Below the pieces are notes generated by a model. It ran no database searches. It was given only the letters and a program-made list of their open reading frames with translations, and was not told where the DNA came from. A DNA stretch of 32,252 nucleotides from Acidobacteriota bacterium (GTDB lineage: Bacteria > Acidobacteriota > Terriglobia > Bryobacterales > UBA6623), in the NCBI GenBank assembly GCA_027624045.1, contig JAQBUE010000048.1, forward strand, positions 1-32,252, given 5' to 3'. Positions 9,122 through 14,242 of this stretch are shown here, in pieces (the first letter of the stretch is position 1; each line of letters begins with the position of its first letter). The position numbers were made by a program, and so were the translations under genes.

Positions 9122-10927
9122 TTGCGACCAAAACTGATTTCCCTTCTCTCCCTGATGCTCTTTCTGATCGCGGGCTCAAGCCTAACCGCGGCTTCCGCCA
9201 ACAAAGTAAAGTTTCCCGACGAACCGCCGCCCCGCAACGACGTCAAGCTCGACAATCGAGTCGCTGTCCCGATGCGCGACGGCGTCATTCTATACGCCGA
9301 CGTCTTCCGCCCGATTGACGACGGCAAATACCCGGTCCTCGTCTCGCGTACGCCCTACAGCACCGAGCGCGCCCCAAGCTCTTACGCGGAGGCTCTGTTC
9401 TACGCCCGCCGCGGTTACGTTTACGTCTTCCAGGACGTTCGAGGGCGTCATGAGTCCGAGGGCAAATGGGAGCCCTTCCGCGACGACATCGAAGACGGAT
9501 ACGACACCGTCGAATGGGCCGCCAAGCAAGACTGGTCAAACGGCAAGGTCGCGATGCAGGGGCACTCCTACGGCGGACATGTCCAATGGCGGGCCGCGAT
9601 GGCCGCGCCACCTCACCTTGTCACGATCTTCCCTCTTGTCGCCTCAACAAGCCTTTACCACGACTGGATCACGCTCAACGGCGGCTGGCGTCTGTCGTTT
9701 AACTTCGGCTGGGGCGCGGTGCGTCAGGAATCGCGCATCATGCAGAACGTCGGGCCGCACACGATGGACGCGGGACCCGAGGCCATCAACTATGACACTG
9801 TGCTGCCGACGCTCCCGCTCAACAAGATGCAGGGGCTTGTCGGGCGCAACGCGCAGTTCTATAAGGACTGGCTGGCGCATCCGGACTACGACGACTATTG
9901 GAAGAAGATCAATGTCGAAGAGGTGTTCGACCAGATCGCCATCCCCGTGCACACATTGGGCGGCTGGTTCGACATTTTCAGCCAGGGCACGTTGCGCGGA
10001 TTCGTCGGCGTGAGCCATCACGGCAAGACCGAACAAGCACGCCGCAAGAGCCACTTAACGATTGGCGCATGGGGACACAGCCCGTCCCGGCGCGTGGGCG
10101 ATCTCGATTTCGGCGAGCACGGGAACGCCAGCCGCGACGCCTTGCAACTGCATTGGTATGACTACTGGCTGCGCGGCGTCGATAACGGACTCGACCGCGA
10201 GCCTCCTGTTCGGCTATTCGTCATGGGGCGCAACGAGTGGCGATACGAGGACGAGTATCCGCTGGCGCGCACCGAGTACAAGAACCTCTACTTCCACAGC
10301 GCCGGCCGCGCCAATAGCGTCCGGAGAGACGGCCGTCTGTCATGGGATGAGCCCTCCGCCGATGCGCGGCCGGATCGCTACACCTACGATCCCGATATGC
10401 CGGTTCCCAGCGTTGGCGGGAATAACTGTTGCGGCACACCGACGCCCGCCGGCCCCAAGGACCAAAAGGACGTCGAGAGCCGCAATGACGTACTGGTCTA
10501 CACCTCCGACTTTATTGAGGAGGAAATCGAGATCACGGGGCCCGTCAAGGTCGTCCTCTACGCTTCATCCGATGCGCTCGACACGGACTTCGTGGCGAAG
10601 CTCGTTGATGTGTATCCCGACGGCAAGGCTTACAACATGGCGGAGGGCATCCTGAGAGCGCGCTATCGAGAGGGGCTCGACCAGCCCAAGCTGCTCGAAC
10701 CCGGCAAGGTTTACAAGCTGGAGATTGATCTGGTCGGTACGAGCGTTGCGTTTCAGAAGGGACATCGGATACGAGTTGATGTAACGAGCAGCCACTTTCC
10801 ACAGTTTGACCGCAACCCGAATACGGGCGAGCCGTTCGCGACGAGTACGACGGTGAAGCGGGCCGTGCAGACCGTACATCACTCGAGCCGGCAGCCGTCG
10901 CATATTGTCCTGCCGGTGATCCCGTAG
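9122..10927 (+). CDS. CocE/NonD family hydrolase (peptidase S15, X-Pro dipeptidyl-peptidase-like), secreted
   Basis: TTG start; signal peptide; VAVPMRDGVILYADVFRP, YVFQDVRGRHESEG, nucleophile GHSYGG, GGWFDIFSQGTLRGF, IGAWGHS, C-terminal jelly-roll VDVTSSHFPQFDRNPNTGE. Confidence 0.94.
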   Translation: MRPKLISLLSLMLFLIAGSSLTAASANKVKFPDEPPPRNDVKLDNRVAVPMRDGVILYADVFRPIDDGKYPVLVSRTPYSTERAPSSYAEALFYARRGYVYVFQDVRGRHESEGKWEPFRDDIEDGYDTVEWAAKQDWSNGKVAMQGHSYGGHVQWRAAMAAPPHLVTIFPLVASTSLYHDWITLNGGWRLSFNFGWGAVRQESRIMQNVGPHTMDAGPEAINYDTVLPTLPLNKMQGLVGRNAQFYKDWLAHPDYDDYWKKINVEEVFDQIAIPVHTLGGWFDIFSQGTLRGFVGVSHHGKTEQARRKSHLTIGAWGHSPSRRVGDLDFGEHGNASRDALQLHWYDYWLRGVDNGLDREPPVRLFVMGRNEWRYEDEYPLARTEYKNLYFHSAGRANSVRRDGRLSWDEPSADARPDRYTYDPDMPVPSVGGNNCCGTPTPAGPKDQKDVESRNDVLVYTSDFIEEEIEITGPVKVVLYASSDALDTDFVAKLVDVYPDGKAYNMAEGILRARYREGLDQPKLLEPGKVYKLEIDLVGTSVAFQKGHRIRVDVTSSHFPQFDRNPNTGEPFATSTTVKRAVQTVHHSSRQPSHIVLPVIP

Positions 10928-11071
10928 GCGAGCTACGTACATCGTTTCCAAGGCTTTCTAACGTATTCGGGGGCTTCGGGCGACGCGAGGAGAGCACGTG
11001 CAGGTTCTCCGCGTTGCCGACAACACGTCAATGTGTAGGAAATGGATCAATGCCGCGCCGTCAGGGCGGAT

Positions 11072-11098
11072 CTATGTGGCATGACCTATGTGGCATGA
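11072..11098. repeat. Tandem direct repeat CTATGTGGCATGA x2 with 14-bp period
   Basis: CTATGTGGCATGA at 11072-11084 and 11086-11098. Confidence 0.85.
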
Positions 11099-11300
11099 TT
11101 GATGGACTGGCAGCGAGAGTGGTAGGATTATCCAGATCAGCCGGTCGGCCCAAATTCGGGAGCGGAGTTAGGGGAACATGACGGAAGTCATTGCAAACGA
11201 ATTGGTCGCTGCCCGGGTTGGGGTCGGCGACTTCGTCTAAGGCCGTCGACCACAGGTTTTATCCAGGTCAGCCTAGACAGGAGTTAGGTGGATTTAGCTC

Positions 11301-12110
11301 GTGCCAAACTTGGTACCACGATCGCGGGAGATGGTCATAGTGGCGTACTTTCTAGCCAGGTGGGGCGAGCCTACGGCACGGGGAGCAACTGTCCCACCGA
11401 AGGAGTTGGGCGCCGACAGTTGGAAGCGTGCCTACTCCGTCTTTTACACCCGCCTAAGTGAAGGACGCTCTGTGCGTACGTTTCGCAATAGTCTCCAGAC
11501 TGCTCGTGCTGTTTACGACGCGCATCTTCCATCAGGGAGAAAAGGTTGGAAACGGGCAGGTGCCGACCGGCCCCCGGCGAAGCTACCGAGCAGGCACCAA
11601 TCCGTATGGGACGATTGGGCGTCCAAGCCACGCGCTGAACTATGGGATCGGATTCAACAGTTTGCAGACCTTGGAGTAAGCAAAATATCGGGCCGAGTCC
11701 TTGACGACCTTGATGTCCAGCTCGGCGAAAGTGAGGAACCACCTAGCCATACAGAAGGCGGAAAGAAGGTGTTCGTGTCTTCTCGCGCGGAGCGTGACCC
11801 AACAGTTCGGGCGGCGGCAATCCGTATCCATGGGACTTCGTGTGCAGTATGTCGACTCGACTTTGGCCGTGCCTATGGAGAATGGGGTGCAGGATACGTC
11901 GAAGTACATCACCTTGTGCCACTCGGAGACAAACTAGGCACACGAGAAACCGACCCTACAATGGACTTGGCCGTTCTCTGTGCGAACTGCCACCGTATGG
12001 TACACCGCAAGACAAACATGGTTCTTACGATTGAGGAGTTACGTTCAAAACTCAACTTTCGCGAGCTCCTAAAGTGGGCGAGGTCGCTCGCAGACGGAGC
12101 ACTATCTTGA
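11301..12110 (+). CDS. HNH endonuclease
   Basis: GTG start, 269 aa. C-terminal HNH/zinc fold: CAVCRLDFGRAYGEWGAGYVEVHHLVPLGD...DLAVLCANCHRMVHR (about 11841..12005). N-terminal alpha-helical region AYFLARWGE...LGADSWKRAYSVFYTRLSEGRSVRTFRNSLQTARAVYDAHLPSGRKGW resembles a recurrent pre-HNH domain. Confidence 0.92.
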   Translation: MPNLVPRSREMVIVAYFLARWGEPTARGATVPPKELGADSWKRAYSVFYTRLSEGRSVRTFRNSLQTARAVYDAHLPSGRKGWKRAGADRPPAKLPSRHQSVWDDWASKPRAELWDRIQQFADLGVSKISGRVLDDLDVQLGESEEPPSHTEGGKKVFVSSRAERDPTVRAAAIRIHGTSCAVCRLDFGRAYGEWGAGYVEVHHLVPLGDKLGTRETDPTMDLAVLCANCHRMVHRKTNMVLTIEELRSKLNFRELLKWARSLADGALS

Positions 12111-12145
12111 AAAACTCCAATGACACAACGCACCGTAAAAGCGCC

Positions 12146-12205
12146 GTCTAACAATCGCATGGCCGGCGACGCGGTAAACCGTGCGGGTCATGCGACTCGT
12201 TGGCC
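12146..12205 (+). other. attC-like (59-base-element-like) imperfect inverted repeat
   Basis: GTCTAAC (12146-12152, fits RYYYAAC) ... TCGCATG (12155-12161) ... TAAA loop (12175-12178) ... CATGCGA (12189-12195) ... GTTGGCC (12199-12205, GTTRRRY with one deviation). The manual fold gives about 17 paired bases, with unpaired bases only on the left arm (G12165, G12166, A12169). Confidence 0.6.
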
Positions 12206-12238
12206 CGCATCTGAAATCCGACGGACCGGAGCAACTGG

Positions 12239-12979
12239 ATGGCATGGCTCAGTGCTGATGAAAGCGGACCCCCGACGGGAGAATTCGCGAAATGGCGAAG
12301 TGGTTGGTTCAAGCTGGCGGAGTACCACGGACGGAATGTGCCGGACGTGGACGCGAGAATCCAGGCGCTGATCGATCTGTGGCGCGTGCCAGTGCCGGGC
12401 AACTGGCAGCGCACCATCGACCCGCAATTGCTTGGGCCGAGCTACAGACGCGGCGATATTAACGCCCCGCACAGTGGTGAACACCGGATAGAGCAGCAGA
12501 TGCTCGCAGACCCAATCTCTGACGTCAGGTGCATGGGTGCAATGGTGGTCGACGGCATTAACGCGATGCCTTTGGTGCGCGACGCGGCAGGTGGACGCAA
12601 CGCCAACGTTGAAGCCGACGTTTTGCTCCTGCTGAGTGACGACGTCGGAGAGTACAGGCTCGCGCTCTTGGAAGTGAAGCACGGAGCAAACAACCCCTGG
12701 TACGCCGCAGTGGAGAACCTGCTACAGATGAAGCTATTGAGCGCCAATCAGGAACAGCGTCGTCTGTTCCACGAGCGAGGAAGGGTTGCGCGGTTGGACG
12801 AAGATCTGCCCGTTGTCGGTCTCGTCGTTGCGCCATCGGCGTACTACCAAAGCCCTGGTCAGAGGAAGGCAGCAGTCCCGCCTGCGCAGCGCCTCCACAA
12901 GCAGTTTCGGAATGATATTGGCATTGATCTCCATCTTGCTACTTGGGATGCCGCCGCCCGCACGGTGACGCCGCACTGA
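12239..12979 (+). CDS. Predicted PD-(D/E)XK-fold nuclease-like protein of unknown function
   Basis: 246 aa; GGAG 7 nt upstream of ATG. HRIEQQM helix, then NVEADVLLLLSDDVGEYRLALLEVKHGANNPWYAAVENLLQMKLL (D...EVK pattern, 12611..12679, then a helix with Q/N). Confidence 0.65.
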   Translation: MAWLSADESGPPTGEFAKWRSGWFKLAEYHGRNVPDVDARIQALIDLWRVPVPGNWQRTIDPQLLGPSYRRGDINAPHSGEHRIEQQMLADPISDVRCMGAMVVDGINAMPLVRDAAGGRNANVEADVLLLLSDDVGEYRLALLEVKHGANNPWYAAVENLLQMKLLSANQEQRRLFHERGRVARLDEDLPVVGLVVAPSAYYQSPGQRKAAVPPAQRLHKQFRNDIGIDLHLATWDAAARTVTPH

Positions 12980-13453
12980 CCGCAGGGGTCGAATCGTGGA
13001 CGCGGAGAACGGGTCGGCCGGATGTGGGAATAGGGCGTGCGGGTGCAGGCTAAGATGACCACTTGGTCGAGATCGTTCCGTTGGCGGAGAGATACGGCTA
13101 CGTCGCAGAAGCCCGCCACGAAGCTCGCGTGGCGAGTAATCTAGCTTGCTACTCCGAATCCGCCACGTCCCAATCTAGTTAGTTTCAGAAGAGGAGCTTA
13201 ACTGGAATCACTGCCGAAGGTGGCTTTCCGGTTGTCAGTCCGAGGCATGTAGAGCTCCCTTTCTCCAACGCAGCCTCGAAGACGACAACGTGTGGCTAGA
13301 TCCTCCCTTGTCGGAGAGTGTGGATTCAGGCCCCGCCCAGAATGAGATGTAACAGCTTTCTCGCGGGAGTTAGATGTTCCGCGGCTCTCGTGCACGCGCC
13401 GCAATACGTGAGCGAACTCCAAGAACGATATGCCAACGCAACGGACGGCCCGC

Positions 13454-14242
13454 TTACGGCTTCCAAGAAATGGCGTTTAGCAGAATCTGGACGAACGTCG
13501 GATTCTGAAAATCTTCGGCGCGGTGGCCCTGCTGGAAGTAGAGGACGTGGCCGCTGTCGGCCGGCATCAACCACCCCGCGCGGTCCTGTGCGTAGGTCTT
13601 GCCATCGACGACGACGCGCGCGCCGAGCAGCACCGTCTTGCGCCGTCCGTCGGTGAAGTGCTGATTGAGAAACATCTCCGTATCGGGCAGCGTGAAGCCG
13701 TCGAGTTGCTGTTCGGTTGACGGCTCGTCGCTGGGCCGGTACGTGACCTTGCCGGGGTACTCGACATTGTGCGTCGTCACGTAATGATGCGGCTGAAGGT
13801 TCACGACTTCGACGTCGCCGCGCAGAACGCGCCACGGGTGAGTCGCGTGGTCCCGCGGGAGGATGGCAATTCCCGCGAAGGGCAGCCAGCGCTTGCTGCG
13901 AACTTTCGCAGACGCGATGCCGTGGTGCAGGATGATCAGCCGGCCGCCCTTCGCCGCGTAGTTGATGAGATCGATCTCGACACCGGACTCGATGTCGCCG
14001 TGGACGTACATGAAGACGGCCTGGGGGGCCGACTGCCTGAGGCGTTCAGCGAACGGCCCCTGCTCGTCGACGGAGACCGTGTAGCCGGCGGCTTCGAGCG
14101 CGGCGGCGAGCGCCTCCATGGGCCCAGTCTCGTCGTGAACGATGTAAACGGGTGGGCCGGCAGCCGGTGTCAGCACTGGCCGGACAAGGGGCAGCAGAAC
14201 GAAAAGGGTGAGGGCGAGCAGACGAAGGGTCAAGAGACGCAT
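13454..14242 (-). CDS. ThuA-like domain protein (trehalose-utilization-type glutamine-amidotransferase fold), secreted
   Basis: Signal peptide; VYIVHDETGPMEALAAALEAAGYTV; INYAAKGGRLIILHHG; HPWRVLRGDVEVVNLQPHHY; MFLNQHFTDGRRKTVLLGARVVVDGKTYAQDRAGWLMPADSGHVLYFQQGHRAEDFQNPTFVQILLNAISW. Confidence 0.85.
   Translation of the reverse strand: MRLLTLRLLALTLFVLLPLVRPVLTPAAGPPVYIVHDETGPMEALAAALEAAGYTVSVDEQGPFAERLRQSAPQAVFMYVHGDIESGVEIDLINYAAKGGRLIILHHGIASAKVRSKRWLPFAGIAILPRDHATHPWRVLRGDVEVVNLQPHHYVTTHNVEYPGKVTYRPSDEPSTEQQLDGFTLPDTEMFLNQHFTDGRRKTVLLGARVVVDGKTYAQDRAGWLMPADSGHVLYFQQGHRAEDFQNPTFVQILLNAISWKP

Follow-up and report, generated by a model that had tools for sequence, protein, structure and literature searches.

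An EcoKMcrA-like nuclease gene between an attI-like and an attC-like site, a probable integron relic in an acidobacterial draft genome

EcoKMcrA is a type IV, 5mC-specific, HNH restriction enzyme. Restriction and toxin-antitoxin genes are common cargo of integron cassettes (PMC8618304), and integrons have been reported as antiphage libraries in Vibrio and among mobile integrons (works cited in PMC12444791). The locus described here resembles the sedentary chromosomal integrons treated there as antiphage stores in that defence-type genes are kept as cassettes; unlike them, it is reduced to one cassette, lies in an acidobacterial draft genome, and is known from sequence alone. With CALIN and chromosomal integron relics it shares an attC-bearing cassette with no detected intI, and arrays lie on other contigs of its genome. 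However, the usual threshold for a CALIN is at least two attC sites, whereas this locus has one, plus a retained attI-like site. In all likelihood, its HNH nuclease gene is the sole remaining cassette of an integron relic consisting of an attI site, one cassette, and an attC site, with no integrase. It is called a relic rather than an integron because no intI gene is adjacent to it or was detected in the genome.

The window, that is, the whole stretch of 32,252 nucleotides that was analysed, makes up the whole of contig C188 (JAQBUE010000048.1) of a 5.5 Mb Acidobacteriota draft genome (GCA_027624045.1; 342 contigs, 93% complete). The region between an X-Pro peptidase gene and a ThuA-like gene holds two open reading frames, 11301-12110 and 12239-12979. 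An earlier note on this DNA had described them as two same-strand ORFs with nuclease motifs, set between unusually long intergenic gaps of about 370 and 470 bp; both ORFs and the quoted motifs are present, and the gaps measure about 373 and 474 bp. An Rfam scan of the region gave no relevant match. Its features are as follows:

ending at 10927: X-Pro peptidase gene, left neighbour of the two-ORF region
11216..11289, plus strand: attI-like recombination site, its core ending in ...CCTAGACAGGAGTTAGGT; predicted crossover point directly behind the G in the GTT at 11283
11284..12199, plus strand: inferred HNH cassette, the unit between the crossover points (attI-like GTT at 11283, attC R' GTT at 12199)
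11301..12110, plus strand: HNH endonuclease gene, 269 aa, GTG start, C-terminal half EcoKMcrA-like
12146..12205, plus strand: attC-like site; R'' GTCTAAC, L''/L' stem TCGCATGGCC/GGGTCATGCGA, R' GTTGGCC
12239..12979, plus strand: rare 246-aa gene, possible PD-(D/E)XK nuclease, ATG start; motifs GEHxIE, EAD, and ExK
13454..14242, minus strand: ThuA-like gene, right neighbour of the two-ORF region

The GTTAGGT at 11283, which the earlier note had matched to GTTRRRY, is present and is the sole GTTRRRY between 10928 and 11400; what that note had missed is that the 74 bases ending in it are a repeated attI-like site. In a DNA search of the genome with 10928-13453, 64 bp (11225-11288) proved 86% identical to C120 7313-7250 on the minus strand (E=1.7e-13), immediately before an array of four attC sites in the same orientation, and a weaker copy (78% identical) was found at C128 4259-4187, also on the minus strand. 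All three copies end in GTTRRRY. A profile built solely from four attI-like sites of a sister family (genomes G018 and G020) and run over 117 kb of the window's own genome recovered the C120 copy at E=7e-10, 11225-11288 of the window at 3e-5, and the C128 copy at 5e-4, the next match, which is not an attI, having an E of 0.62. In G018 and G020, the attI-like sites have intI remnants on their 5' side and cassettes on their 3' side, all pointing in one direction. Those on G020:C383 and G018:C803 follow an intI 3' remnant, and at these two sites, as on C120, the terminal GTTRRRY is complementary at 7 of 7 positions to the R'' of the next attC. When aligned with class 1 attI1, the window core CCTARACARRAGTTAGGY is similar to CCTAAAACAAAGTTAGGC, whereas the outer part is not clearly conserved in the window site and no intI1 lies alongside. 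Of the parts of a complete integron platform, the locus retains a recognisable attI-like site.

The attC-like element that had been claimed behind the HNH gene, 36 nt past its stop codon and 33 nt before the second ATG, was borne out by a covariance-model search, a kind of check that the same note had proposed. The model (R1) was trained on 16 attC sites, drawn from class 1 cassettes, from integron arrays of the same bacterial class, and, in three cases, from C120/C171; the window's own element was excluded from this set. Run over the whole window with filters off, R1 matched 12146-12205 along its full length (model positions 1-70) at 24.4 bits (E=0.0013). With the next-best place at 10.0 bits (E 2.4), this is the only good match, and only one attC is found in the window. 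In 3 Mb of Markov sequence, a simple attC scanner reached the score of 12146-12205 just twice. A pattern search of the whole genome returned it together with three other long-stem sites, two on C120 and one on C171; its stem score is 11.25, those of the other three are 14.5-15.75, and six chance matches in the genome score 7.5 or less. The site scores below nearly all attC sites that were in training or found in G018/G020, and its plain folding energy does not stand out (z about -0.5). It is termed divergent because its R' (GTTGGCC) falls outside GTTRRRY and because the best R1 alignment does not place its two extrahelical bases in the usual T-N6-G spacing. Extrahelical bases of this type bear on likely mobility, as they favour recombination without being a strict requirement for an attC call (PMC3053210). 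By its model and scanner scores, 12146-12205 is attC-like beyond chance, though divergent. As another explanation of the hairpin, a terminator was rejected, there being no T-run terminator.

A cassette start of the GTTRRRY type is present upstream of the HNH gene, namely the GTTAGGT at 11283. Against it, the R'' GTCTAAC of the window matches at 5 positions by Watson-Crick and at 2 by wobble pairing, short of 7/7; in the arrays of G215 and G222, which lie next to an integron integrase, 14 of 15 cassettes follow the junction rule at 7/7 and the remaining one at 6/7. Such a junction would fit a decayed cassette without proving one. One point against the cassette reading is that the AGGTGG at 11287-11292 may be no more than a ribosome-binding site. 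On the other side, an integron origin is also backed by the other attC and attI-like sites of the genome, by the GC3 of the HNH gene (0.53, the lowest among 20 window genes, the others having 0.64-0.83), and by its absence from genus mates, neither of which has a homologue. The ORF at 11301-12110 is very probably an integron cassette, and from the two flanking sites we infer past integrase action at this locus and the boundaries of the cassette. An empty site was sought in the genus mates by way of the flanking peptidase gene, and none was demonstrable, as the neighbourhoods of that gene are not syntenic with the window.

The HNH protein matches the Pfam HNH family above cut-off (E=1.3e-4) and PADLOC mREase_IV (E=6.6e-10), and its residues 105-252 match EcoKMcrA (6ghc; E=1e-7). 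Across 11 aligned proteins from the order, the HNH residues and the zinc cysteines do not vary. Genes of this family occur in 13 of 151 genomes of the order and are also found on plasmids. What the protein shares with EcoKMcrA is the C-terminal half, including the HNH and zinc cysteines, whereas the NEco reader domain of EcoKMcrA has no detectable similarity to its N-terminal half; residues 1-104 matched no family, and the N-terminal half holds no recognised modified-base reader. The PADLOC and EcoKMcrA matches place the family among the restriction type, in keeping with the restriction or defence nuclease that had been claimed. These similarities suggest that a type IV-like (modification-dependent) restriction role is likely; taken on its own, restriction activity of this protein seems slightly better than an even bet. 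A defence or anti-phage role is conceivable for either gene.

The proposed origin of the locus is that an integrase, acting in cis or in trans, would once have joined a circular cassette, consisting of the HNH gene and its attC, to the attI at 11216-11289. The integrase gene would later have ceased to lie beside the attI-like site, and because it is no longer there, the cassette would have become fixed. The product of the HNH gene is most likely a stand-alone, type IV-like restriction endonuclease, of which the N-terminal half would read DNA and the McrA-type HNH domain would cut it; cutting would protect against phage or other incoming DNA.

No intI was found in the window, none passed the TIGR02249 cut-off in the 93% complete genome, and a search ahead of the attI-like site in the window gave no intI stub or remnant; as the genome is a draft, its missing sequence may hold an intI. 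Other integron parts are present. On C120 (5064-7322, minus), an attI-like site precedes four attC sites spaced at about 420-710 bp, forming an integrase-less array beside folP/folK and an M81 peptidase gene. This array has the two or more close attC sites without intI by which a CALIN is defined, whereas the window locus, with its one attC, does not. On C337 (13-1003), an attC is followed by a gene for an Mrr-type restriction endonuclease (Mrr_N + Mrr_cat), and a second attC lies at 2333-2429, behind further ORFs. On C261 (2941-3607, minus), genes for a HigB toxin and a HigA-like antitoxin are followed by an attC, as in a toxin-antitoxin cassette. Like the HNH cassette, the Mrr and HigBA cassettes join restriction or toxin-antitoxin genes to attC sites; in contrast to it, their protein families are unrelated to the HNH protein and their attC sites score higher.

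Twenty-one genomes were scanned with R1, with 150 candidates scored per genome. Among these candidates, which do not include the window element, attC sites at E<=1 came from the window's own genome and from G018 and G020, of another family; none was found among the 150 scored candidates of each of the 18 other genomes. The G018 bin is 81% complete and the G020 bin 64%, and both may be mixed. On the contigs of these two genomes that were examined there are about 50 attC matches, and G018:C681 carries a near-complete integron integrase gene. Many attI-like sites occur on contigs C374, C803, C20, C919, C120, C861, and C141 of G018, several of them behind intI 3' stubs and ahead of attC cassettes. 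This suggests either that one genome can hold many defunct integron platforms or that the bin is mixed.

In all, attI-like sites number three in the window's genome and at least eight in one sister-family genome. A tentative and rather doubtful extension of the relic reading is that of a distributed integron in this acidobacterial order, in which attI sites would have grown in number and scattered, unaccompanied by functional integrase genes, and would serve as docking points for one trans-acting integrase. If true, many docked cassettes would be restriction, toxin-antitoxin, or other conflict genes, with no single array. The repeated sites make the idea of one integrase and many sites testable, and offer a way to locate cassette entry points even in genomes that have lost the integrase.

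Another account has the cassette enter the chromosome not through an attI but at some random, secondary site (attG-like). Insertion at sites that are neither attI nor attC is documented (PMC10127599, PMC12901181), and a single cassette without intI would suit it, but the upstream site belongs to a repeated family that stands behind intI remnants and ahead of cassettes in the sister family, which makes this origin unlikely.

The second ORF, 12239-12979, had been paired with the HNH gene as a possible PD-(D/E)XK nuclease in a second cassette. Its 246-aa product (P0002) carries GEHRIE, EAD, and LLEVK motifs in the order of a PD-(D/E)XK core (E81/E85, D127, and ExK at 145-147); the helix after ExK carries a glutamine, and the order of strands and helices fits that core. 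No significant match was found in Pfam, NCBIfam, PADLOC, or PHROGs, and an AlphaFold model from a two-row alignment has a pLDDT of 40, its Foldseek matches being meaningless. Of the nuclease claim, the motifs in order stood and a profile or fold match did not emerge; a PD-(D/E)XK identity is plausible. Believable relatives number two in 258 genomes of the order, in G081 and G186, and both are damaged. The G081 relative, whose contig (LNFE01000074.1) was the only match in a scan of the genome collection, is missing its N-terminal portion and shows ExN or else a displaced lysine, and the G186 relative (G186:C809 4031-4314, minus) is a pseudogene with a frameshift, from which the whole putative catalytic core is deleted. 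None was found in plasmids, viral contigs, or phages. Matches in G102, antisense to a response-regulator gene, and in G812 and G760, both weak, were judged to be chance.

Two adjacent cassettes forming a mobile two-nuclease defence module would accord with the position of the second gene, which shares the strand of the attC-like site and begins 33 nt beyond it; the attC of a terminal cassette could also have been lost. Against this, R1 found no attC behind 12979 and scored no other place in the window above about 10 bits, no GGCCAAC partner for the R' GTTGGCC was found behind the second ORF, and the GTTGGCC before it does not fit a cassette start, leaving that unit without TTRRRY at its start. 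The GC3 of the second ORF (0.687) is near the window's range. The earlier note had also looked to co-occurrence of the two nucleases as a check: in the stretches compared, neither the G081 nor the G186 relative has an attC or HNH gene beside it, and the search for HNH homologues reported none in G081. A cassette pair is quite improbable on these grounds, and the wider proposal of integron-derived or otherwise mobile nucleases holds for the HNH gene, with an attI-like site in front and an attC behind, and is not supported for the second ORF. As read from its flanks, the second ORF lies outside the cassette on present evidence. Because no attC follows it and its relatives show no attC or HNH gene in the stretches compared, it is best seen as, and probably is, a chromosomal neighbour of the attI site. 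With the cassette taken out, the junction would read GAG^TTGGCC, which closely resembles the GAG^TTGGCT at the attI-like site of G018:C374.

Coincidence, in which an ordinary horizontally acquired HNH gene would happen to lie between an upstream ribosome-binding site and an unrelated downstream hairpin, can draw on an attC that is single and sub-canonical and on an HNH family that is a common accessory in the order and on plasmids, but independent tests of the two flanks agree (attI-like, E=1.7e-13 and 3e-5; attC, E=0.0013) and the same genome has other attC sites, which leaves it the least probable account.

An integron relic holding the HNH cassette would extend the antiphage-integron picture to an uncultured acidobacterial lineage, through a cassette for an McrA-like nuclease that is held at an orphan attI-like site, and the locus is a concrete case for telling a cassette gene from a chance neighbour. 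Elsewhere in the genome, on C128 (781-4259, minus), where no attC was found, the attI-like site ends in GTTAGAC and immediately precedes a VWA - PP2C - protein kinase gene triad, which we take to be TerY-P-like. In the window itself, a tandem 14-bp repeat (GATCTATGTGGCAT/GACCTATGTGGCAT) lies at 11069-11096, past the peptidase gene and ahead of the attI-like site.
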